Source: Deltaproteobacteria bacterium
GTDB lineage: Bacteria > Myxococcota_A > UBA9042 > DTJE01
Reading direction: 5' to 3'
DNA: 64,000 nt
Assembly: GCA_029555025.1 (NCBI GenBank)
Contig: JAKPTZ010000017.1
Location: 62,001 to 126,000 of the forward strand
Shown: piece after piece, positions 3,052 through 38,341 of the stretch
Layout: each line of letters opens with the position of its first letter
Position numbering within the stretch: the stretch's first letter is position 1
Made by a program: the position numbers and the translations under genes
The notes under the pieces: model-generated
Databases searched by the model: none
What the model was told of the DNA's origin: nothing
What the model saw: only the letters and a program-made list of their open reading frames with translations

Positions 3052-3816
3052 TTAAACCCCCGCGGCTTCGACGATTGCGCCGAAAGAAGCCGACTTCAAG
3101 CTGGCCCCGCCAACAAGCGCGCCATCAACATCACTCTGGCCCATGAGCTCGCCGGCATTTTCCGCCGTAACGCTGCCGCCGTAAAGAATCCTGGTCGCCG
3201 CCGCGGTTTCCTGTCCGAACATTCTGACAAGAAGGCCGCGGATGAACTCGTGAACCTCCTGAGCCTGGGCCGGCGTGGCGACATCGCCGGTGCCGATGGC
3301 CCAGACGGGCTCATATGCAACAACCACGGAAGCCATGGCCGCGGCGTCCAGACCGGCCAGTCCGACGGTGACCTGCCGCTCCACGCGCTCAAAAGTGCGA
3401 CCGGCAACGCGCTCGTCCTTGCGTTCACCGACACAGAAAATCGGCGTCAGCCCGACCGCAAGCGCGCGCTTGACCTTGGCCGAGATCAGCTCGTCCGATT
3501 CGAAGTGATACTGGCGCCGTTCCGAATGACCGACGATAGCATAGCGGCAACCGACGCTGACAAGCTGATCCCCGCTGATCTCACCGGTAAAAGCGCCCTT
3601 GACCTCGGTACTGACGTCCTGGCCGCCGACCCCGACTGCGGAGCCTTCCATCACGCGCACCACCTCGGGAATCAACACGAAAGGCGGGCAAACCGCAACC
3701 TCCACGCCGCGGAACCTGGAAACCCTGTCAAGGACCTCCCGCGCCAGGGTTCTGGCGCCTTCCACGTCAAGATTCATCTTCCAGTTGCCGGCCACAAGAG
3801 GCTTTCTCGAAACCAT
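3052..3816 (-). CDS. tpiA: Triosephosphate isomerase
   Basis: TpiA interconverts dihydroxyacetone phosphate and glyceraldehyde 3-phosphate in glycolysis. Visible motifs are AGNWKMN (catalytic Lys), IVGHSERR (catalytic His) and VVAYEPVWAIGTG (catalytic Glu), with the phosphate loop LYGGSVTAENA and VGGASLK near the C-terminus. I chose ATG 3816 (254 residues) because GGAGGG lies six bases upstream and the ATG overlaps the stop of the upstream PGK-like gene (TGATG); the frame is open five codons further to a TTG. All catalytic residues are intact, unlike those of its neighbour. Confidence 0.96.
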   Translation of the reverse strand: MVSRKPLVAGNWKMNLDVEGARTLAREVLDRVSRFRGVEVAVCPPFVLIPEVVRVMEGSAVGVGGQDVSTEVKGAFTGEISGDQLVSVGCRYAIVGHSERRQYHFESDELISAKVKRALAVGLTPIFCVGERKDERVAGRTFERVERQVTVGLAGLDAAAMASVVVAYEPVWAIGTGDVATPAQAQEVHEFIRGLLVRMFGQETAAATRILYGGSVTAENAGELMGQSDVDGALVGGASLKSASFGAIVEAAGV

Positions 3817-5054
3817 CAGGACCCTCCACAAAGCGCCTTGACCCCCGGCAGCTCCCTGCCGAGCAGCATCTTCATACCGATATCGCCGCCACAGGACACG
3901 AATGAAAAGAACGGGGTCAGGACAAGACGCGACACGACTTCAGCCATCTCGTCACCGATAATCGTGGCTGCCGCCGAGGTGCGGATGACGCTTCGGGCGA
4001 CCTTGTCCGAAGATGCCGTGCAATCGGGCCCCCGACAGGTTCCGAGCGCCCCGTGCCACACCAGCGAACGCAGACCCCTCAAGCCGCCGCAGAACACCTC
4101 GACCGTGGCGGGTCCCACGTCCAGAATCACGTGATCGCCGGGGACGCCGTCGGAGCGCACGATACGTGCGTCGTCGTGCCCCGCGCCGTCCGGAACCACC
4201 AGAAAATCTTCGGGAAGAACGATTTCAACGCCTCGAAGCTGGGCCCTGGAAAGAACCTTGCCCGCCTGCTCGACGCGATCCTTTTCAACCTTATGGGCAC
4301 CGGTACGCCAACCCTTCGCAACATAGAAGGGAAGCGCGGCGTGACCGGCCAGAAAAACCTTCCTGGCGCGACCGGGATGATTCGCCAGGAACTCAAGGGC
4401 CATCCCGTCGTCGGGACCGCCGAAGATGAACCCCTGGCCTTCCGGTGCCTGAACCATCCTGGACAGCGCCTCGACCTCCCGACGGAACCGGAGTCCGGCA
4501 ACCTTCTCGTTGAAGAGCGCGGAAACCCCGACCGTTGACGCAAGCACCCGATCCGAAAGCCTGAATGCCTCGTTCACGAATACATCGGCCAGACTGAAGA
4601 GCCTTTGCGAAAAAAGGTCGTCGTTTCGGTCATCTTCAGGACAGAAGCCAAGATTCTCCAGCAGGACGACCTCGCCCTCGACCCGCTCCATGATGACCTT
4701 CCACGGGCCTTCGCCAACGGTGTCCTCGGGCAGGAAGATGTCCCGGTCAAGAATCTCGGCAAGCCTCTCGCCAAGAAGCGCAAGCGAAAGCTTCGGATTG
4801 CGGCGGCCGATCTGGCCACCGAGCGTGGTGGCAAGCACCACCCTCGCGCCCTCGGCGATCAGGTGCCGAATTGTCGGAAGACAAAGCTGGATTCGGGAAT
4901 CGTCGATGATGGTGCCGTCTTCATCGACAGGGCAATCCATGTCAACCCGAACCAGCACTCTCCTGCCGTCCAGGGACATGTCCTCGAGCCTGTCCATATC
5001 ACGGAAGCCAGCCACCGCAACCTCAAAACCCTGGCCGTATTCGGCCGGTCGCAT
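3816..5054 (-). CDS. Phosphoglycerate kinase-like protein with degenerate active site
   Basis: A 412-residue protein (393 if it starts at the inner ATG 4997) that aligns with phosphoglycerate kinase along its whole length: RVLVRVDMDCP, DDSRIQLCLPTIRHL, VVLLENLGF, LADVFVNEAF and a C-terminal SFVSCGG. Most ligand residues are changed, however. The SHLGRP segment reads TTLGGQ (about 76-81). ENVRF reads ENLGF, so its Arg is lost. HRAHAS reads DRVLAS, so both His are lost. The ATP-binding GGAKVSDK reads GGPDDGMA, so its Lys is lost. WNGPMGVFE reads WHGALGTCR, and the GGGDT loop is replaced. It is therefore unlikely to be an active kinase. The frame is intact and coupled to tpiA, so it looks maintained. 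No gap gene lies next to it. I left the symbol pgk off for these reasons. Confidence 0.82.
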   Translation of the reverse strand: MRPAEYGQGFEVAVAGFRDMDRLEDMSLDGRRVLVRVDMDCPVDEDGTIIDDSRIQLCLPTIRHLIAEGARVVLATTLGGQIGRRNPKLSLALLGERLAEILDRDIFLPEDTVGEGPWKVIMERVEGEVVLLENLGFCPEDDRNDDLFSQRLFSLADVFVNEAFRLSDRVLASTVGVSALFNEKVAGLRFRREVEALSRMVQAPEGQGFIFGGPDDGMALEFLANHPGRARKVFLAGHAALPFYVAKGWRTGAHKVEKDRVEQAGKVLSRAQLRGVEIVLPEDFLVVPDGAGHDDARIVRSDGVPGDHVILDVGPATVEVFCGGLRGLRSLVWHGALGTCRGPDCTASSDKVARSVIRTSAAATIIGDEMAEVVSRLVLTPFFSFVSCGGDIGMKMLLGRELPGVKALCGGS

Positions 5055-5174
5055 ACTTTATCAGAAAGACGTCCGGTGTCAATCGCAAGGATCCCGGTGA
5101 AATCCCGAATAAAAACCGCGACAAACCTCGGCGCCGGACCGTCCGGAAGCCGATCTGCCGGAGGACGGCGCCCG

Positions 5175-6533
5175 TCAATCGATCCCGCGCCGGGCAAGCC
5201 ACTCCCTTGTGGTCACCAGGGAATCGACTCCGTCAAGACTCTTCGTGGGCTGGAAATATCGATCACGATCCAGAACCAGCACGCCGACCCGGGAAGGTTC
5301 CAGGAGGCCGGCAAGCGACTGGTTGAGCATCTCGTGGGAGCATGCCCTGACAAGCCGTCCCCCGATATCGACCTCCTTCCCTCCGTAAAGGGTCGGCGGC
5401 AGGTCGGGTCTGACGGCGTCCAGCTCGACCAGATTCGTATTGATGTGGGCGGGAACGAGCAGAAGTCTTCCGGCCGCATCGACAGCCGTCGCGGTCTGAA
5501 CCGGGCACACCGAGTATTCTACCACCTCAACCCGACCGGTGACCCGGTTCATGGCGATGATGCCGACCTTCTCAAGCGGATCCACCCGCAAAACGGCAGA
5601 CATCGTCATGCTGAACCCGCCCCGGGCATGAAAACCGAGCCGCGCGGGCTCAAGCGCCATGGCAGCGACGTTATCGACATTGTGAAGCACGATGCTGCGG
5701 ACGCCAAGCCCCCGAAGCCAGCCGGCAACCCCGCCATCGCCGTATTCCGGGTCAAGGAGAGCCTTGAACACGCCACCGTGGCCATCCCCGGTGAAAACAA
5801 GGGAACCGTCCGCCCTGATAATAAGATGGCCGTCCATGTCCAGCCTGGGATGGTCGGCCTGAACCATGACCTTCACCAGACTCCTGTCAAAACCTTCCGG
5901 CAGCGATGTCTCGACCCATTCCAGAAGCGCGTCCCGGGTCGCCCGGCCGGCCATCAGCACCAGCGGGGCCATTCGCCCATGCCGGCGTCCGGATTGAAGC
6001 ATCTGCTCCGCGAACAGGTCAAGAAAGGATCGCCCTGTGATCGGCGCCACGGGAAACAGCCCCTTGGGAGCGTTCCCGCCATACCTCGACAGGATGGCCC
6101 TGGCCTGCGGATGTCCCGACGCTCCGGCCCAGAACCTGGTGGCCGCCCCGCCCGCAAAGATGATGACGCCCCATCGCCCGGCGGCAAGATCGGCCTCGCC
6201 GCGTGAAGCCAGATCCGCGGTTCCTGCCCCGGAAAGCTCCGAGTACCGGAATGGCACCAGTTCCGGAACGACACCGGAGCCATCGGACGCGGCGGCAAGG
6301 ACATCGCTTCGCAACCGCCTCAACCAGGCAAAATCGACCCTCGCAAGATCCAGAAACAGTCTTTCGAAAACTGCCGGCGGGGCCGACATGGGAACCCATC
6401 GTCCAATCGAGGCACCGAAACCTTCGTCACAAAGGATTCGAAGCAGCTCGCAATCACGCGGAACCGCTTCAAGATGGGCCCGCAGCCCCTCAAACGCCCT
6501 CACAGCGCCATCGAATTCCGAATCTCGTGTCAT
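5175..6533 (-). CDS. UTP-sugar-1-phosphate uridylyltransferase family protein
   Basis: A 452-residue protein of the eukaryote-type UDPGP family, which includes UDP-glucose, UDP-GlcNAc and broad UDP-sugar pyrophosphorylases. The nucleotide-binding loop is FAGGAATRFW (about 126-135), followed by the family motif PKGLFPVAP (157-164) and a central Rossmann-like region with LVLMAG, VFTGDGHGGVF and LHNVDN, where the NVDN pair matches the metal-binding site of the family. It follows galK by 45 bases in the same direction. I infer that it may turn galactose 1-phosphate plus UTP into UDP-galactose, replacing GalT; UDP-glucose or UDP-GlcNAc synthesis remains possible. Confidence 0.8.
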   Translation of the reverse strand: MTRDSEFDGAVRAFEGLRAHLEAVPRDCELLRILCDEGFGASIGRWVPMSAPPAVFERLFLDLARVDFAWLRRLRSDVLAAASDGSGVVPELVPFRYSELSGAGTADLASRGEADLAAGRWGVIIFAGGAATRFWAGASGHPQARAILSRYGGNAPKGLFPVAPITGRSFLDLFAEQMLQSGRRHGRMAPLVLMAGRATRDALLEWVETSLPEGFDRSLVKVMVQADHPRLDMDGHLIIRADGSLVFTGDGHGGVFKALLDPEYGDGGVAGWLRGLGVRSIVLHNVDNVAAMALEPARLGFHARGGFSMTMSAVLRVDPLEKVGIIAMNRVTGRVEVVEYSVCPVQTATAVDAAGRLLLVPAHINTNLVELDAVRPDLPPTLYGGKEVDIGGRLVRACSHEMLNQSLAGLLEPSRVGVLVLDRDRYFQPTKSLDGVDSLVTTREWLARRGID

Positions 6534-6578
6534 CTGGATACCCGCCTGATAAATGGTCGATCCAACCGATTTCCGCCG

Positions 6579-7748
6579 TCAGAACCGACCGGAAAGCAGC
6601 CCGCTGGCCGGACGAACCACCCTGACCACCGACTCGATCCCGGTCGCGCCCCTGTATTCGACCGCAAGCCGATCGCAGAAATCGACCGCCGCATCCTGGC
6701 GCACCAGGTTGACCGTATTCCCGCCGAATCCGGCGCCGGTCAGCCTTGCTCCCGCGCAGCCATCGATGCGCGACGCGATTTCGACCAGGCGGTCGAGCTC
6801 GGCACATGAGACCTCGTAATCAAGGGCCAGGCTCCTGTGGGAGCCGTGCATCAGCAACCCGACCTCCGCCACGTCGCCCGCCTGCAGGGCTGCTGCGGCC
6901 CTCACGGTACGGTCGTTTTCGCTTACCGCGTGACGAAGCCTTCTGAAAGAGACTTCGGACATCCCCTGCCTGACCGACTCCAGCATCTCCATGGACACGT
7001 CCCTGGCCGCGCGCACCGTGGGGAAGGAATTCACGACAAAGCTCATGCCGTCGGCGCATTCCTTCTGGCGCCTGGCGTATTCGCCACCGGCCAGTGAATG
7101 CCTGACGCCGGAATCGGCAACAACCAGAACCCATCCGGCCGGAACATCGACAAGCGTTGCCTGAAGAGTCCGGCAGTCCAGAAGCAGCGCCTTTCCCTCA
7201 TGTCCGCAGGCGCTCGCCATCTGATCCATTATCCCGCACGGTACACGGCAGAAAAGGTTCTCGGCCGTCCTTGCGATCGCCGCGACATCGGGGCAGGGTG
7301 GGGCGGAAAGCGACAGCCCGGCCGCAATCCCGACCAGCGAAACCTCGACGGAGGCCGACGAGGAAAGTCCGCCGCCGGACGGCACATCCCCGCCGACCGC
7401 CACGTCGGCGCCGGAAAACGGCCTGCCGGAACGAATCCAGGCCCAGAACGGCCCGCACGTGTATGACCGCCAGTCGATCCGGTCAAACGGCTTAAGGCCA
7501 TCCAGGGCGACCTCGACGGTACCGCCGAAATCGACCGCATGAATACGCAGGATGCCATCGTCACGACCGGCCGCCACGGCACACGTACGAAGATCAATCG
7601 CCGCCGGCAGCACGAAGCCGTCATGATAGTCGGTGTGTTCGCCGATGATATTGACGCGGCCGCCAGCGTCGGCCCAGACCTCGGGAACTCTGGAAAACTC
7701 GTTCCTGAAGCTTTCGCGGATCCTGTCCATCAATTGGGATTGAATCAT
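6579..7748 (-). CDS. galK: Galactokinase
   Basis: A 389-residue GHMP-family kinase that phosphorylates galactose to galactose 1-phosphate with ATP. The galactokinase signature GRVNIIGEHTDYHDGFVLP is at about residue 30, the GHMP ATP loop DVPSGGGLSSSASVE follows in mid-protein, the catalytic-Asp region reads CGIMDQMASACG, and GARLTGAGFGGNTVNLV lies near the C-terminus. It lies in a run with a sodium symporter, a small membrane protein, a cupin and a sugar-nucleotide pyrophosphorylase, which supports uptake and activation of galactose or a related sugar. No galT, galE or galM is present in the window. Confidence 0.93.
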   Translation of the reverse strand: MIQSQLMDRIRESFRNEFSRVPEVWADAGGRVNIIGEHTDYHDGFVLPAAIDLRTCAVAAGRDDGILRIHAVDFGGTVEVALDGLKPFDRIDWRSYTCGPFWAWIRSGRPFSGADVAVGGDVPSGGGLSSSASVEVSLVGIAAGLSLSAPPCPDVAAIARTAENLFCRVPCGIMDQMASACGHEGKALLLDCRTLQATLVDVPAGWVLVVADSGVRHSLAGGEYARRQKECADGMSFVVNSFPTVRAARDVSMEMLESVRQGMSEVSFRRLRHAVSENDRTVRAAAALQAGDVAEVGLLMHGSHRSLALDYEVSCAELDRLVEIASRIDGCAGARLTGAGFGGNTVNLVRQDAAVDFCDRLAVEYRGATGIESVVRVVRPASGLLSGRF

Positions 7749-7768
7749 CTTGTGCCTCTTGTTTCAGT

Positions 7769-8167
7769 TCAGCGCCAGTCGGCGGGCAGGCGGTATTCGG
7801 TATCGAATTCGTCCCGCTCGACAACAAGGCATGTGCCGGAAAACGGACCGTCGGGACAATACGCCGAGTGCGGGGAAGTGACCAGGACCGGCTTCATCGG
7901 CTGCAACGGCAGTTCGGTGACGCCACCGTTCATGTCGGAAATCACAAGTGTCACGGAACCCGAAATCAGCAGGAACAGTTCCGGACAATCGTGAATCTCC
8001 AGTTCGCCGACCTCGGCCGCCGAACATTCCGGTGGACTGAACGCACCGACCCGCCAATGGCCCGCATCACCGCAAAGCACGTTCCAACGCTCACCTTCCG
8101 GAAAGCTGATGGGAAGATCGGCCGCGACCTCGGGAAACGAAGGCCGCCTGGTTGTAACCTTTCTCAT
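7769..8167 (-). CDS. Small cupin-domain protein
   Basis: A 132-residue single-domain cupin. I chose ATG 8167 because GGGGTGG lies just upstream; a GTG three codons earlier is possible. The cupin core shows ELEIHDCPELFLLISGSVTLVI and a second strand set around PHSAYCPDGPFSGTCLVV. The first cupin motif has His and Glu in place, while the second keeps one His. It lies 20 bases upstream of galK within the sugar operon, so it may act on a sugar (mutarotase or isomerase-like) or sense one. The function is not known from sequence. Confidence 0.75.
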   Translation of the reverse strand: MRKVTTRRPSFPEVAADLPISFPEGERWNVLCGDAGHWRVGAFSPPECSAAEVGELEIHDCPELFLLISGSVTLVISDMNGGVTELPLQPMKPVLVTSPHSAYCPDGPFSGTCLVVERDEFDTEYRLPADWR

Positions 8168-8186
8168 GAAGACCACCCCGGGGCCG

Positions 8187-8402
8187 TCAGCCCTGCCGTT
8201 TGTGCGCGACCAGTCCGATTGCGGTGAAGATGACGCCGAAAACGATCATTACCGGGCCCCAGATGAACCCGGGCTTCAACGACTTCAACGCCTGTCCGCC
8301 GGGATCCATCGCCTGCCCCACGATCACGAGGATGCCATAGACGAAAAGGATGACGCCGACAAAGAACCAAATCGGGAGCGGCTGCTTTCCTTCGTTGTTC
8401 AT
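8187..8402 (-). CDS. Small two-helix membrane protein next to the symporter
   Basis: 71 residues with two predicted membrane helices (about 12-32 and 45-64) and short polar ends, the last being AHKRQG. It lies between the symporter gene (16 bases upstream) and the cupin gene (19 bases downstream), so it is part of the operon. I do not recognise a named family. The position suggests a small partner or stabiliser of the transporter, but nothing in the sequence proves this. Confidence 0.7.
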   Translation of the reverse strand: MNNEGKQPLPIWFFVGVILFVYGILVIVGQAMDPGGQALKSLKPGFIWGPVMIVFGVIFTAIGLVAHKRQG

Positions 8403-8418
8403 TTCAGATACCTCCGGT

Positions 8419-10197
8419 TCACCAGAACAGGATGTTAAGGACTATCAGGACAGCCAGCGAAACCGCGGCCCAGAAGGCCGGCCTGCCGTACCATGCCACC
8501 TTCACGGATCCGTCTTCCTCGACGGTCAGGCCCTTCACAAGGCCCACAAGCTCCGAATCGGGCTTCGGCACGGTGAAAAGACTGACAAGGATGGTGCCGC
8601 CGAAGCAGACGATCCATCCCCACGTGGCCTGCCAAAGATTCCTGGTCATGTCGCTGGGGTGTTCCGCCAGCGTCAGGATCGTCGCGACCGTCGGCCCGAA
8701 CAGGTTGAACTTGAAACCCATGTAGATGCCGAAGGAAACCAGCATGCCGGCGATAAGGCCCCAGAAGGCCCCGGCGCTGGTGGTGCGCTTCCAGAACATG
8801 CCAAGCAGCATGGTCGCGAAAAGCGGCGCGTTGACCCACGAGAAGATTGCCTGGATGTAATCCATGATCGTGTTGAACTGCATTGCGACATAAGCCGTCG
8901 CGACCGACAGCAGGATTCCGACTACCGTCGTGACGCGGCCGACCCATACCAGGTGGGCGTCGGATGCCTTCCGGTTGATGACGGCCTTGTAGATGTCGTA
9001 AGTCCAGACCGTGTTGAACGCGCTGACGTTTCCGGCCTGTCCGGCCATGAACCCGGCCAGAAGGGCGGTAATGCCCAGCCCGACCAGGCCGTGCGGATAA
9101 TACCTGGCAATCAGCATCGGCAACGCCGAGTCATACCATGCCTCGCCGGTCGATGGATGCGGCAGGAGCTCGAATCCCATGTCAGCCCGCCTGGTAAGCT
9201 GGAAGGCGACCAGGCCGGCCCCGACCACGATGAACGGAAGGGCCATCTTGAAGAACGAGGCGGTGATCGGGGTCAGGCGTGCCGACCGCAGATCCTTTGA
9301 CGAGAAGGCGCGCTGGACAACCAGGAAGTCCGTCGTCCAGTATCCGAACGAAAGCACGAATCCCAGGCCCATCACAAGACCCAGCCATGTAACGCCCATG
9401 TCGTTGCTGGACGCGGCCCCGGTCGTCTGCCACAGCGTGGTCATCTTGTCTGGCAGGTTGGCGAAGACTTCCGCCGGACCGCCAAGTTCCACAACGCCAA
9501 GGATCGTAACCAGGAAAAGCCCGGCCCAGATCAGGAAGAACTGCACAATCTCGGTGAAAATGGCGCTCATAAGGCCGCCCAGCGTGATGTAGCAGCCGAT
9601 GGCGGCCGCGGACACCCACATCGACACGTGCCAGTCCCACCCCAGAAGGACGTTGAAAACCAGCGCCATCAGGTACAGGTTGATCCCGGACATCAGAAGC
9701 GTCATGACGGCGAACGATATGGCGTTCAGGAGCCTGGTGCGCTCGTCGTACCGCAGTTTCAGGTAACCCGGCACCGAATGGATCTTCGAGCTGTAATAAA
9801 ACGGCATCATGTAAAGGCCCAGGAACAGCATCGCCGGGATGGCCCCAAGCCAGTACCAGTGGGACACGAACATTCCGTACTTCATCGTGCCGCCGGTCCA
9901 TCCCAGGATCTCCAGCGCACCGAGATTGGCCGACAGGAAGGCAAGGCCGGCAACCCAGGAAGAGTTCTTGCGCCCGCCCATGAAGAAGTCCTCGCCGGTT
10001 TTGGTGAACCCGCGAAGGTACAGGCCGATGCCGATGATCGCGACGAAATAAAGCGCGACCACCACCCAGTCGATCACACCCAGGCTCAGGATGGCCTTGT
10101 GCTGCCCTTCCTGGGCGGACGCCGCCGCGGCGGCCATCGACAGCACTGCGCCGGAGGTCAGGGCCGCCAGACGCGGCAATGGAATCCTGTCGAACAT
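8419..10197 (-). CDS. Sodium:solute symporter (SSS family), probable sugar transporter
   Basis: A 592-residue SSS-family symporter with about 14 membrane helices. It shows the family features DFFMGGRKNSSWVAGLAF, NLGALEILGWTGGTMKYG and GYWTTDFLVVQRAFSSKDL, close to the SGLT-like sugar branch. Substrate assignment to galactose comes from the downstream galK. Unusually, the first 29 residues look like a cleavable signal peptide (LAALTSGAVLSMAAAAASAQ) before the first transport helix. The Shine-Dalgarno sequence is GGGGTGA, three bases before the ATG. A 9-bp inverted repeat and a plausible promoter lie upstream at 10264-10320. It is the first gene of the operon running down to 5175. Confidence 0.9.
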   Translation of the reverse strand: MFDRIPLPRLAALTSGAVLSMAAAAASAQEGQHKAILSLGVIDWVVVALYFVAIIGIGLYLRGFTKTGEDFFMGGRKNSSWVAGLAFLSANLGALEILGWTGGTMKYGMFVSHWYWLGAIPAMLFLGLYMMPFYYSSKIHSVPGYLKLRYDERTRLLNAISFAVMTLLMSGINLYLMALVFNVLLGWDWHVSMWVSAAAIGCYITLGGLMSAIFTEIVQFFLIWAGLFLVTILGVVELGGPAEVFANLPDKMTTLWQTTGAASSNDMGVTWLGLVMGLGFVLSFGYWTTDFLVVQRAFSSKDLRSARLTPITASFFKMALPFIVVGAGLVAFQLTRRADMGFELLPHPSTGEAWYDSALPMLIARYYPHGLVGLGITALLAGFMAGQAGNVSAFNTVWTYDIYKAVINRKASDAHLVWVGRVTTVVGILLSVATAYVAMQFNTIMDYIQAIFSWVNAPLFATMLLGMFWKRTTSAGAFWGLIAGMLVSFGIYMGFKFNLFGPTVATILTLAEHPSDMTRNLWQATWGWIVCFGGTILVSLFTVPKPDSELVGLVKGLTVEEDGSVKVAWYGRPAFWAAVSLAVLIVLNILFW

Positions 10198-10575
10198 GAT
10201 TCACCCCTGGAGTTACAAGAATGCACCACGGACCAGACGGTCCCGAATCCGCGTAAAGATAGCATGTCCACGACCGCCGGGGCCAAGGGAATTTAACGAC
10301 GATCTTTAAGGCGTGGACATCCGGAACTTTCGGTTTTAATTGCCGACGACAATCTTCGGTCAGAAACTGACACTTTCGCGGCCCGGGATAATTCACCATT
10401 CCAGAGACTGCGGCTGTGACCCCGGTGCTCGACCGCAGCGGGTGGATATAATCCGCCCGTACGAGGACAGCGGGGAACACGGGGTATGCCGCTGCATGCG
10501 CATAAACACGACCGGAATCAGATTGTGGGACGGATCGGGCCGGTCAACGGCCGCCGAAGCGAACCGTGGTGCTAT
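10198..10575. other. Intergenic region upstream of the sugar operon
   Basis: 378 bases with no convincing gene. The part next to 10197 should carry the promoter for the symporter operon on the minus strand: TTGGCC, an 18-base gap, then CTATCT, reading from about 10290 to 10255. The remaining 250 bases next to the truncated peptidase gene show no ORF, terminator or RNA structure that I can support. Confidence 0.5.
10264..10320. promoter_or_regulatory. 9-bp inverted repeat, candidate operator
   Basis: ATGTCCACG at 10264-10272 is matched by its exact reverse complement CGTGGACAT at 10312-10320, with 39 bases between the arms. It overlaps the proposed promoter of the symporter-galK operon. The arms could be two half-sites for a dimeric or looping repressor responding to the sugar. 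No regulator gene lies beside it. Confidence 0.4.
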
Positions 10576-11673
10576 TCAATCACCCGTCACCGTGACAGTC
10601 CGGGAATTACTGTCCACGCCCGCCTTGTGACGTACCACGACCGGCACGTCCATCGGCGTCACGATGTTCGCTGGCAGCTTGGCGGTGACCGACGCATCGG
10701 ACCACTGATTTGTCGCGTACTCCTGGTAAAACACCACCAGACTGCCCCTGGCAGCCCCGTCGCCGAACCCGCCACCCGTCGCGGTCAGATCAACGGCACT
10801 GGCGTAGTGAAACGTGGCCGGCGTGACCTGGTCCAGCGTTGGAACCTCGAACACCACACTCGGATTGCGCGCGTAGTCGCCAGCCGGATGGCCGTTGACG
10901 TGGATCACTACCAGCGGATTTACCGTTGTGAACGTCTCGGCGCTGGCCAGCGCGATCCCCTCGGGCGTTCCCAGCCCATCAAGCCGCTCCTTCACCTTTC
11001 CCGCACTGTCCAACAACAATGTCCGCTGGAATCCGCCCTTGTGGGACGCCCGCAGCACGCTGCCACTGGCTTCGGCGTAGGACACCGGCGGCTGCGTCCG
11101 GGGGTCGGTCGTGGCACGAACGCCAATGATGCTCTCGGGTGGCAGGCCGCGGTCGATCAACAGCGTGGATGGATTCACTAGGGCCCGGGGCGGCAGGAAC
11201 GCCCTGGAAAGATCCCATCCATTGTACGGGGCGACCTGGCCCCCGAAGTAGGCCAGCGCAAAGCCTTCCAGGAACGCCGGCACATCGCCGACCTCTGTAC
11301 GCAGCGCGTCGTCCGGCCATGTGAGCGTCCCAACCGCCTGGAGAATGCGGAGCACCGCGCCCTCGTGCTGCTTCTCAAGGTAGTCGAACAGGGCAGCAGA
11401 CGCATAAGCCTGATCGTCGGATGCACCGCCAAGGCCATCCAGCCCCAGATGCACGAAATCCGATCCCGCCTTCGCATAATCCTTTGCCGAGTTCGAATCG
11501 GGTAAAGTGACCATCTCGGCCCAGACAGCCGAGCCCTCCATGAACCATTTCCACTGGGATTTCAACATCCTGGCCGCGTACGACATGTTTTCATACTGTA
11601 TGATGTGAAAAAGCTCGTGGGCCTGACCGATATGGCTCAATAAACCTTCGTGACAGGACTCTTGCATTCCCAA
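10576..11673 (-). CDS. Zinc metallopeptidase with IPT-like C-terminus, 5'-truncated
   Basis: A 365-residue ORF with a zincin site HELFHIIQ (HExxH) only about 20 residues from its start, and FMEGSAVWAE about 20 residues further, a likely third zinc ligand. The C-terminal 70 residues resemble an IPT/TIG-like beta-sandwich (GGGFGDGAARGSLVVF ... WSDASVTAKLPA). Secreted peptidases of this kind carry a signal peptide and a long N-terminal region before the HExxH, and none is present here. The frame runs straight into the TAA stop of the upstream FGE-domain gene, with only four codons between that stop and the TTG start. I read it as a gene that lost its 5' end by recombination or deletion, or as an assembly join. 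It may be non-functional. Confidence 0.65.
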   Translation of the reverse strand: MGMQESCHEGLLSHIGQAHELFHIIQYENMSYAARMLKSQWKWFMEGSAVWAEMVTLPDSNSAKDYAKAGSDFVHLGLDGLGGASDDQAYASAALFDYLEKQHEGAVLRILQAVGTLTWPDDALRTEVGDVPAFLEGFALAYFGGQVAPYNGWDLSRAFLPPRALVNPSTLLIDRGLPPESIIGVRATTDPRTQPPVSYAEASGSVLRASHKGGFQRTLLLDSAGKVKERLDGLGTPEGIALASAETFTTVNPLVVIHVNGHPAGDYARNPSVVFEVPTLDQVTPATFHYASAVDLTATGGGFGDGAARGSLVVFYQEYATNQWSDASVTAKLPANIVTPMDVPVVVRHKAGVDSNSRTVTVTGD

Positions 11674-35586: not shown

Positions 35587-36160
35587 CAAGCGCCGGCAGA
35601 TTGACCGCATCAACGATTACGTGCATCGCGACAGGCGCGACAAGCGATCCGGTCATCATGTAAAGGCCCCCGGCCGCCAGCCCGCCAGCCAGGGCGAACA
35701 ACCCCCACAGAACCAGCCCGCGCCTGAACAGGCCGTGAACGGCGGCAAACAGGACGGAAGTCACGCCAAAAGCCCACCACCTGCCAACCATCGATTCCAC
35801 GAGGGACCAGAGTGCGCCACGGAAGACAAGCTCCTCGGAAACACCTGCCATCACGGCCAGGACAAGCGCGCCGGCGGGCGAAAGTTCCTTTGTGGCGGAA
35901 GCAAGGACGGATGCCATTCGCCGGCCCGAGGCGGAAAAAAATACCAGAAGCCATGAAGCAATGATCAGAATTGCGGCAACCGCCGCGCCGGCAAGAACGG
36001 ACACGGCCCAGGATCGGGCATCGGCGGGAAACGCCGCAAAGCCGAAAATCCGGGGAAAAGCCCGGGCGGCGGCGGCCGATAGAATGCCCGCGACGGCATA
36101 AAAGACCAGCCCCGCGACGAGCAGCCGCCAACGACCCGGCCTGTTCCCGGATTCACCCAT
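35543..36160 (-). CDS. CPBP-family intramembrane metalloprotease (CAAX-like)
   Basis: About 205 residues from ATG 36160. It has at least six membrane helices and the CPBP/Abi motifs: EELVFRGAL (EExxxR), AAVHGLFR (HxxxR) and HVIVDAVN (HxxxN). The Glu and His residues form the metal site of this intramembrane protease family. In bacteria the family includes CAAX-type processing and bacteriocin-immunity proteins; its substrate is unknown. It overlaps the murU-like gene by eight bases and the convergent lnt by 44 bases. Confidence 0.82.
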   Translation of the reverse strand: MGESGNRPGRWRLLVAGLVFYAVAGILSAAAARAFPRIFGFAAFPADARSWAVSVLAGAAVAAILIIASWLLVFFSASGRRMASVLASATKELSPAGALVLAVMAGVSEELVFRGALWSLVESMVGRWWAFGVTSVLFAAVHGLFRRGLVLWGLFALAGGLAAGGLYMMTGSLVAPVAMHVIVDAVNLPALVMRGGAGRRQAQES

Positions 36161-37169
36161 TGTTCTTAACCGGCCCATCGGGAAGGGCAATACCAGAGAA
36201 CTTGCCGGATACCACCGCACCTGCCATCACAACGGCATTGCCGACATCCGAACCCGGCATTATCCGGCCGCTGCAAGTGACGTTCGGGCCGATCGTCGCG
36301 CCGGTTCCAACCCATGCGCCATCGGAAACGAAGGCCGGACCGTGAAACACAACGTCCGAATCGATCCGGGCCCGACCGGATACGAATACCGACGGGCCAA
36401 TTTCGGGAGGCACGGGGAATCCCCTTCGGGAAAGCAGCATCGGGGCCGCCGGTATTGCCCTTGAACACAGATCGAGATAGCTGCCGATTGTCCCGATGTC
36501 GCAATACCACGTGTCGTCGAATTCAACGGAGGCAGGCCTTATTCCAAGCCTCAAGGCCGGGATCAATCCGTCACCGACCAGGCACGGACTGAAAGAGTCG
36601 TCGCCGCGCCTGGCAACGGTGTCACGGAGAATCTCCAGAATCTGCGGGCCAACGACTGAAACGCCACCATAAACGACCTTCCTGCCGCCGCCGGGCGCCG
36701 GCAGTCCACGAAGGGCCGACACGGAACCGTCGGGCGCCAGTTCAACCCTTCGTTCCGACGGGTCAAGGCGCGAGCCGTCCAGCACCCCAAGCACCGTCCG
36801 GGCCGATGCCCCGACAAGCCGCCCGATGTCCCAGTCGCTGAAGATGTCGCCGTTGTGGACAAGAACGCCATCCGAATCGCCAATCAAGTCAAGGGCCCTG
36901 ACCAGCGCACCTCCGGTTCCGAGAACCCTTTCCTCGTGCGAATAGGTGATCCCGACACCCAGCCGCGAACCGTCCCCGAGCACGCCGACCACGGATTCGG
37001 GAATATGGTGAAGGTTGACAACCAGCTCGGTCACGCCGGCATTTCGCAACCCGGCAACCACCCACTCGACAAGCGGCATTCCAAGCACTGGAAATGCCGG
37101 CTTCGCGATTCGGGCGGAATAGGGGAGCAGCCTTGTGCCGAGCCCGGCCGCCAGTATGAACCCCTTCAT
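36153..37169 (-). CDS. Nucleotidyltransferase of MurU type (sugar-1-phosphate)
   Basis: 338 residues. The N-terminal signature is ILAAGLGTRLLPYSARIAKPAFPVLG, as in sugar-nucleotide pyrophosphorylases, with VLVHNGDIFSDWD carrying the metal-binding Asp. The C-terminal 90 residues form a partial left-handed beta helix with IGPSVFVSGRARIDSDV-type turns, longer than the usual MurU. It directly follows an AmgK-like kinase gene (two bases between), the pair that in Pseudomonas salvages cell-wall MurNAc. I therefore infer MurNAc 1-phosphate uridylylation. Mannose 1-phosphate guanylylation is the alternative. Confidence 0.78.
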   Translation of the reverse strand: MKGFILAAGLGTRLLPYSARIAKPAFPVLGMPLVEWVVAGLRNAGVTELVVNLHHIPESVVGVLGDGSRLGVGITYSHEERVLGTGGALVRALDLIGDSDGVLVHNGDIFSDWDIGRLVGASARTVLGVLDGSRLDPSERRVELAPDGSVSALRGLPAPGGGRKVVYGGVSVVGPQILEILRDTVARRGDDSFSPCLVGDGLIPALRLGIRPASVEFDDTWYCDIGTIGSYLDLCSRAIPAAPMLLSRRGFPVPPEIGPSVFVSGRARIDSDVVFHGPAFVSDGAWVGTGATIGPNVTCSGRIMPGSDVGNAVVMAGAVVSGKFSGIALPDGPVKNNG

Positions 37170-37171
37170 CT

Positions 37172-38212
37172 TCAGAAATGCTCCGGAAGGTACCTTTTCA
37201 GAACCGCCCTGGCCTGAGCGTACTCGGGAAGATGATCGAACGCCTCGGCCACGTACGCAAGCGACTGCGGTATGTTTGGAAGGAACTTGGGATTTCCCTT
37301 GACCCGGTCTATGAACACGAACCGCCCCGCATCCTTCAACTTGCGCTGCAAGGCCTGCAGGTGGAAAAGGCGCCGGATTTCTTTAATATCGGGAATCCAT
37401 GGCATCAACGGCCTGCCGACCTCGTGATAATACGAAAGAAAATCGTCAACTTCCGAAGGACTGAATTTCACGTAGGAATCACGGAGCAGGGCCACCAGGT
37501 CATAAATAAAGGGGCCGACAAGCGCGTCCTGAAAATCGATGACCCTCATCCGGCCATCCTTGATCATCAGATTTCGACTCTGGTAATCCCGATGCACGAA
37601 CCCCTGGCGCATCGCCGTCAACCTGGATGTTACATCCTGGAAGAACGCCTTCAATAACGCCGAGTCGGCCGCATCCGGCTCTCGCCCGCACATCTCGACC
37701 AATCCCCACTCGCGGAAGTGATCGAATTCCCACATCAGCAGATCGGCATCGAACGACCGCTTGAAGGCAACATTCGAAGGGTCGGGATTGAGAAAGGCCC
37801 AGTACTGCATGTCAACAAGCACGTCGATGGCCCATCGGTACAGGTCACGACGGTTTCCGCCCGCCGCAAGAGCCCGTTCGAGCGTGACGTCGCCAAGATC
37901 CTCGAGCACCAGGAAACCGGCATCAAGGTCTGTAACCAGGATTTCCGGAACCGCGACATTGCCCCGCGAAAGATAATCGGCCACGTCACAGAAAGGAAGT
38001 CGCCTTGAAGCCCCCCCCGACGGCCCTTCCTCGCTTGAAAAGGGCTCGGCGGCAAGCTTCATGACCATGAACCGGCCGGGGCCGGAAAGCCTGAAATATG
38101 ACCTGTTTGAAGCGTCGCCGGGAAGCCTCGTCACTTCCCAGCCGACGGGAACGGTTCCGCCTGAAAAATCCCGAAATGCACGCGCCGCATCTTCACCGGA
38201 TCCCGACATCAT
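37172..38212 (-). CDS. Anomeric sugar kinase of AmgK type (APH fold)
   Basis: About 346 residues if translation begins at ATG 38212 (371 from the longest frame at 38287; no start has a clear Shine-Dalgarno). It has the aminoglycoside-phosphotransferase fold: LPGDASNRSYFRL near the start, LVLEDLGDVTLE, then the catalytic HRDYQSRNLMI and VIDFQDALVGPFIYDLVALL. AmgK phosphorylates the anomeric position of MurNAc or GlcNAc during peptidoglycan recycling. The partner nucleotidyltransferase lies just downstream. I see no antibiotic resistance context, so a cell-wall recycling role is more likely than aminoglycoside modification. Confidence 0.8.
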   Translation of the reverse strand: MMSGSGEDAARAFRDFSGGTVPVGWEVTRLPGDASNRSYFRLSGPGRFMVMKLAAEPFSSEEGPSGGASRRLPFCDVADYLSRGNVAVPEILVTDLDAGFLVLEDLGDVTLERALAAGGNRRDLYRWAIDVLVDMQYWAFLNPDPSNVAFKRSFDADLLMWEFDHFREWGLVEMCGREPDAADSALLKAFFQDVTSRLTAMRQGFVHRDYQSRNLMIKDGRMRVIDFQDALVGPFIYDLVALLRDSYVKFSPSEVDDFLSYYHEVGRPLMPWIPDIKEIRRLFHLQALQRKLKDAGRFVFIDRVKGNPKFLPNIPQSLAYVAEAFDHLPEYAQARAVLKRYLPEHF

Positions 38213-38341
38213 CCAAACCCCGAAAGATTCACGCAGAGCATAACGCATTCGGGCCGCGACCGGAAAACGCATGGCGCCCGGGGACACGAAGCTGTGCCTG
38301 CAATGAAGTGTTACGTCAGGCTGTCGGGGGTAATATCAGCG

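Follow-up and report, generated by a model that had tools for sequence, protein, structure and literature searches.

A predicted galactose operon of Myxococcota pairs galactokinase with a divergent UDPGP-family enzyme that may replace both GalT and GalU

The window analyzed here is a stretch of 64,000 nucleotides from a deltaproteobacterial genome of 3.49 Mb (158 contigs, 97.6% complete), in which it occupies positions 62001-126000 of contig C45. It carries a module of five genes, called as open reading frames (ORFs) on the minus strand, which in the 5' to 3' direction are predicted to encode an SSS symporter, a 71-residue membrane protein, a cupin-fold protein, the galactokinase GalK and a uridylyltransferase of the UDPGP family, with intergenic gaps of 16, 19, 20 and 45 bp (Table 1). 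This layout agrees with the original prediction, which had described five co-directional genes with small gaps and had proposed that they form a galactose module, in which UDP-galactose is made directly from galactose 1-phosphate (Gal-1-P) without GalT. Its statement that galT and galE are missing holds for the module, from which both are absent, but not for the genome, which encodes a true GalE elsewhere (TIGR01179, 450 bits against a cut-off of 262.3). Rfam gave no matches for RNA elements within window positions 4800-11000.

Table 1. Genes of the module, the adjoining pgk gene and the GalT-family gene of the same genome. Positions are those of the window unless a locus is named.
Feature	Position	Strand	Length, support and remarks
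SSS/SGLT-type Na+/solute symporter	8419-10197	-	592 aa; PF00474 (SSF) 170.2 bits, TIGR00813 228 bits
71-aa membrane protein	8187-8402	-	ORF; possible small subunit
Cupin-fold protein	7769-8167	-	132 aa from ATG; predicted model
galK, galactokinase	6579-7748	-	389 aa; TIGR00131 284.7 bits, cut-off 226.65
Divergent UDPGP-family uridylyltransferase	5175-6533	-	452 aa; PF01704 56.5 bits, cut-off (gathering score) 22
pgk	3816-5054	-	120 bp beyond the UDPGP-family gene
Sole GalT-family protein of the genome	L032 1498-2529, contig C72		Beside GH57

GalK passed the curated equivalog cut-off for galactokinase (Table 1) and was nearer to human galactokinase (GALK1, 250 bits) than to N-acetylgalactosamine (GalNAc) kinase (GALK2, 109 bits). 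The cupin gene, which was present in 20 of 89 genomes, provided a second link to galactose. In genome G033 it lies in a cupin-galE-galK-galT operon, whose products matched the respective NCBIfam equivalogs with 385.6 bits (GalE, TIGR01179), 299.7 bits (GalK) and 393.8 bits (GalT, TIGR00209), and in G053 it stands beside galE-galK; G033 is one genome, with 8% contamination, and calls for care, and G053 is 79% complete. Because its cupin recurs in the G033 operon, the module is, as judged by homology and gene context, itself a galactose operon, as had been proposed. In the taxonomic family that includes the source genome (labeled f1; 13 genomes examined), the pyrophosphorylase gene stands where G033 has galE and galT.

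The cupin protein itself found no support in Pfam or NCBIfam. Its AlphaFold model (pLDDT 86.9) showed a cupin fold, and the top Foldseek match was 3d0j, a protein whose own function is unknown. The original prediction had named this protein as the epimerase or mutarotase candidate of the module. We rejected this role, since the same genome encodes GalE and has an aldose-epimerase-family gene, and the presence of galE beside the cupin gene in G033 and G053 likewise argues against a replacement epimerase that would substitute for GalE. On the basis of the predicted model and its gene context, the cupin may be regarded as a marker of galactose operons.

The closest solved relative of the symporter is the Vibrio SGLT (2xq2, E = 1.8e-47), and the protein is 74-81% identical between f1 genera. 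Homology makes it a probable galactose importer, with galactose as the presumptive transported sugar. The 71-aa protein, for which no Pfam family reached its cut-off, adjoins the symporter wherever it is found and is kept between the symporter and the cupin in the f1 genomes and in G032, so that it is possibly a small subunit. At two positions that bind sugar in SGLT proteins (hSGLT1 numbering), the symporter has different residues, Tyr in place of E102 and Glu in place of H83. Together with the breadth of the USPs, this difference would fit an operon in which a kinase and a USP salvage another sugar, such as L-arabinose, galacturonate or glucuronate, as in plants. We consider such salvage very unlikely, given that GalK exceeds the galactokinase equivalog cut-off and that galE and galT, as neighbors in related genomes, indicate galactose.

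Conservation of the five-gene order, which had been suggested as a check, was assessed in the 13 f1 genomes. The order was complete in six (G000, G003, G004, G008, G009 and G012), was consistent but interrupted by contig ends in three (G001, G007 and G011), and was rearranged in four (G002, G005, G006 and G010). In G005 and G006, the trio of symporter, membrane protein and cupin is separated from galK-UDPGP, and in G002 cupin-galK lies on one contig and the UDPGP gene on another. In G010, an in-frame join leads from the start of the cupin gene to the end of galK (L161, about 7450-7880), with the UDPGP gene intact behind it; this join reflects a genuine deletion or else an error of assembly. 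The conserved order within f1 is more than chance. The trio forms a unit of its own, which is present in G032 as well.

A scan of genome contigs identified 25 loci related to the UDPGP gene of the window; their titles are mostly Myxococcota, Myxococcales or Deltaproteobacteria, and Oligoflexales, Bdellovibrio and Anaeromyxobacter appear once each. At 12 of these loci galK adjoins the UDPGP gene, and three (L161, L162 and L173) are remnants or contig ends. Pairs of galK and UDPGP recur as far away as L168, L177 and L180, loci at which the symporter, the 71-aa protein and the cupin were not detected. In a tree of 23 UDPGP proteins, from which L163 (broken frame), L181 (partial) and L173 (fragment) were left out, as they were from the underlying alignment (A2), the galK neighborhood required four changes and did not form one clade.

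The PF01704 match of the window protein covered only positions 67-256 of 413, and its score of 56.5 bits compares with 352-439 bits for the canonical UGPs of the phylum. A profile of 14 members of its subfamily retrieved UAP structures first (E = 5e-44, 154 bits), with far weaker matches to UGPs and to USPs, the latter at 38-44 bits. The earlier label of a eukaryote-type UTP-sugar pyrophosphorylase was thus correct as to the UDPGP family, but the nearest relatives are UAPs and not USPs. The predicted structure of a full-length relative, L158 (629 aa), had a pLDDT of 90.3 and could be superimposed on LmUSP with a Z score of 27.4 over 481 residues, reaching model residue 600.

To compare active sites, we used the AfUAP1 residues that bind UTP, phosphate and sugar, as listed in PMC8386105. 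The residues that match them, T132, R133, K157, Q225, G251, G324, E339, Y340, K386 and the catalytic K431, were present in 23 of 23 members, whereas Q138 and G139 of the AfUAP1 UTP loop were not kept as such, the first being mostly Ala and the second Ala or Gly. Two other UAP residues were replaced in all 23 members: Asn249, which contacts N-acetylglucosamine (GlcNAc), by His252, and Cys277 by Asn285. This His/Asn pair is the same as in the canonical UGPs of the phylum (12 of 12) and in a short UDPGP type (16 of 16). Position 363 (UAP Asn355) was His in 15 of the 23 members, including all 11 that are galK-adjacent, and Asn in eight; the alignment at this position agrees with the UAP profile alignment but is less certain because of a repeated N-x-N motif nearby, the NTN motif of canonical UGPs could be shifted there by two, and the His/Asn split amounts to few evolutionary events, the Asn rows being mostly from one clade.

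The distance from the catalytic Lys to the C-terminus was 22 residues in the window protein and that of its congener, as compared to 156-203 residues in the other 21 members. It therefore appears that the genus lost the C-terminal domain, of about 150 residues, which is absent from the genes at window 5175-6533 and L157 1667-3016, and that the catalytic residues were retained. Taken together, the sequence and the model suggest that the enzyme belongs to a divergent bacterial subfamily of UDPGP proteins, with a UAP-like fold and a partly UGP-like sugar site.

Because UAP/AGX structures were the best matches in both sequence and fold, we considered N-acetylhexosamine salvage of the mammalian type, in which the kinase would yield GalNAc-1-P and the pyrophosphorylase would convert it to UDP-GalNAc. 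This appears very unlikely in view of the kinase scores and the G033 cupin context described above, the replacement of the sugar-contacting Asn249 by His in every member, and the presence of a full-length GlmU in the genome. Synthesis of UDP-GlcNAc as the main role of the enzyme is likewise unlikely, because this GlmU is present.

Besides galE and the aldose-epimerase-family gene, three PGM/PMM-family genes were found elsewhere in the genome. Its five PF00483 proteins are GlgC, a GMP-type protein, a MurU-like protein, the full-length GlmU and one unassigned protein; none of them is GalU, for which the best TIGR01099 match in this 97.6% complete genome was at background level (E = 7e-8). Canonical GalT was not found in the genome either. 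The only GalT-family protein, encoded on contig C72 (Table 1), is divergent: it scored 245 bits against structure 1z84 (At5g18200) and at most 118 bits against true GalTs, and it fell below the stricter PRK11720 model (148.7 against 448 bits). The gene for this protein adjoins GH57 in all 13 f1 genomes, and in G015 and G026 it lies between GH57 and GlgC (neighborhoods were fetched for 30 of 42 loci). According to a review (PMC6329318), the nearest homologue of GALT in Arabidopsis, At5g18200, functions as an ADP-glucose phosphorylase, and USP is a possible alternative route for Gal-1-P in plants. The genome check proposed in the original prediction was divided in its outcome, with galE present and canonical GalT missing but for this divergent family member.

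The phyletic distribution was tallied over all 89 genomes, with GalU counted at E below 1e-50 and with a weak match in G042 (E = 2.8e-4, no PF01704 match) dropped from the UDPGP set. UDPGP proteins alone were found in 43 genomes, GalU alone in 36, both in five and neither in five, a pattern of almost complete mutual exclusion. Among the 24 genomes with galK above the cut-off, three had canonical GalT, and all three of these had GalU and none had UDPGP. Of the 21 without canonical GalT, 19 had UDPGP and lacked GalU, and six of the 19 (families f16, f20, f23 and f26) had no PF01087/GalT homologue whatever. Thus, across the phylum, UDPGP goes with galK where canonical GalT is missing; the Fisher test made on these tallies ignores shared ancestry. 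Switches within families f6 and f20 suggest several independent exchanges. The UDPGP proteins of the phylum comprise canonical UGPs, the short GGMATRF/GHGD type, two UAP-like kinds and the kind found in the window, so that the phyletic argument draws on several subfamilies. In a separate observation, UDPGP and GalU occurred together solely in family f18 (five of its six genomes), which could help to separate the roles of the two enzymes.

These distributions also bear on a different explanation, an ordinary Leloir pathway in which the unlinked C72 protein acts as GalT on Gal-1-P and the UDPGP enzyme only supplies UDP-glucose, priming the GalT cycle, hence its place beside galK. All 13 f1 genomes encode a GalT-family protein, and that of the source genome lies above the TIGR00209 cut-off (113.6 against 102.1 bits), so that it could still serve as GalT. 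Moreover, UDPGP complements GalU over the 89 genomes and stands without galK at 10 of the 25 related loci, which makes UDP-glucose synthesis a likely core role. On the other hand, the C72 protein resembles the Arabidopsis ADP-glucose phosphorylase structure far more than it does true GalTs, its gene keeps the company of GH57 and, in two genomes, GlgC, and 22 of the 37 genomes with a divergent GalT have no galK above the cut-off (among these 22, galK is split or truncated in G006 and G010, and a galK-like match in G020 and G027 stays under the cut-off). Six galK genomes do without a GalT homologue of any kind. In G032, the GalT that adjoins galK is of a different kind, scoring 63 bits with human GALT and 27 bits with 1z84, although it falls slightly under the TIGR00209 cut-off (100.1). 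Overall, we regard the Leloir explanation as the main rival to the reading that we prefer, and as less likely than it.

We instead favor, with moderate confidence, a galactose uptake and activation operon in which a pyrophosphorylase (Isselbacher) route replaces GalT and its enzyme probably takes over from GalU as well. Family membership is the basis on which every enzymatic step of this pathway is proposed. The symporter would import galactose, which GalK would phosphorylate to Gal-1-P. The UDPGP-family enzyme would then convert Gal-1-P and UTP to UDP-galactose and PPi, and the unlinked GalE would convert UDP-galactose to UDP-glucose. Acting in reverse, the pyrophosphorylase would release Glc-1-P, for glycolysis, and UTP from UDP-glucose; acting forward on Glc-1-P, it would provide the UDP-glucose supply of a cell with no detectable GalU. 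The presumed activity on Gal-1-P is the least certain step. Some activity on Gal-1-P is described for human UGP and for a bacterial GalU (PMC5381698 and PMC6888414), so that a low activity of this kind would be unsurprising and would not settle the role of the enzyme. The core idea of the original prediction, UDP-galactose formed straight from Gal-1-P without GalT, is therefore plausible on the present comparisons. Since no GalU was found in the genome, we go beyond that idea in proposing that the enzyme also makes UDP-glucose, and it probably has this dual role.

Several observations weigh against the proposed pyrophosphorylase route. The L158 model was nearer to UAP (Z about 37, ~20% identity) than to UGP (28.5) or USP (27.4), the window protein no longer has the C-terminal domain that its relatives carry, two sugar-site positions of the symporter are altered, and the C72 protein exceeds a GalT cut-off. 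G010 retains an intact UDPGP gene behind a fused, truncated galK, and the 10 related loci counted above have no galK within the fetched flank of the UDPGP gene, which indicates that the role of the enzyme is not only in galactose metabolism. Two galK genomes, G014 and G032, lack both UDPGP and canonical GalT. Finally, the six galK genomes without a GalT homologue carry other UDPGP kinds than that of the window.

Isselbacher-type pyrophosphorylase routes are known from plants and trypanosomatids (PMC12584669 and PMC4722067). Similar to the USP-dependent route of plants and Leishmania, the window system combines GalK with a UDPGP-family pyrophosphorylase and has no recognized GalT; as in Arabidopsis, the sole GalT homologue of the genome belongs to the ADP-glucose-phosphorylase type (PMC6329318). 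In contrast to that route, the window system is bacterial, is contained in one operon, uses an enzyme that is not closest to USP, and probably also replaces GalU. The eukaryotic UAP1/AGX1 proteins, the best match in fold and sequence, share the nucleotide- and phosphate-binding residues and the catalytic Lys, but they differ from the window subfamily at Asn249 and Cys277, and the relatives of the window protein add a C-terminal domain. Canonical UGPs (12 loci) and the short type (16 loci) share the GHG histidine, the NxDN motif and the catalytic Lys and, like the kind in the window, are found mostly in genomes without GalU; the window's kind is distinguished by a GGAATR nucleotide loop, as compared to GGLGTS/GGMATR, and by GHGG instead of GHGD. 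The Leloir gal operon (galE-galK-galT) has galK in common with the window operon and, in G033, the same cupin gene, but in the window operon the pyrophosphorylase replaces galT and galE, and galE is unlinked. A search of the mostly open-access literature turned up no report of galK and a UDPGP gene sharing an operon in Myxococcota. The novelty lies in the operon being bacterial, in the divergent subfamily and in the proposed joint replacement of GalT and GalU, while the route itself was already known.

Downstream of the UDPGP-family gene, the order continues with pgk, tpi, secG, parA and parB. The same genes follow in several relatives, and the place of the module near parAB thus appears to be fixed. 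The gap before pgk contains a terminator-like site (5136-5119) and a promoter-like site (5082-5055), both of them matches from consensus scans, which suggests that pgk is a separate transcription unit. This pgk is unusually divergent, with 39-46% identity between genera of the family, as compared to 59-67% for the adjoining tpi, and the usual PGK motifs look altered. Just upstream of the module, positions 10576-11673 (minus strand) partially match the MXAN_6640 family of putative HExxH metalloproteases. At window positions of about 36150-38290 (L042 841-2975), the MurU-like nucleotidyltransferase gene lies directly beside that of an AmgK-like kinase; both proteins fall below curated cut-offs, and the pair suggests recycling of peptidoglycan sugars.

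A broader proposal, which we offer tentatively as a possibility somewhat short of even odds, is that a subfamily on a UAP scaffold, with a partly UGP-like sugar site, has replaced GalT and GalU and now serves a Myxococcota lineage as its central UDP-hexose synthase. Under this proposal, the His at the UAP N355 position in galK-linked members may tune the enzyme to galactose, and the genus of the window may use a form that works without the C-terminal domain. If the pyrophosphorylase route is correct, the subfamily would offer a clean test of how a UAP-like fold chooses between hexose and N-acetylhexosamine. It would also be a warning about annotation, since the C72 protein resembles ADP-glucose phosphorylase and yet may be named GalT automatically because it exceeds the NCBI galT cut-off. 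For the organisms themselves, it would mean that bacteria have assembled in one operon the GalT-free route of plants and trypanosomatids, using an enzyme that belongs to another branch of the family. The enzyme would be a new single source of UDP-galactose and UDP-glucose, and it would help to account for the many Myxococcota that manage without GalU.

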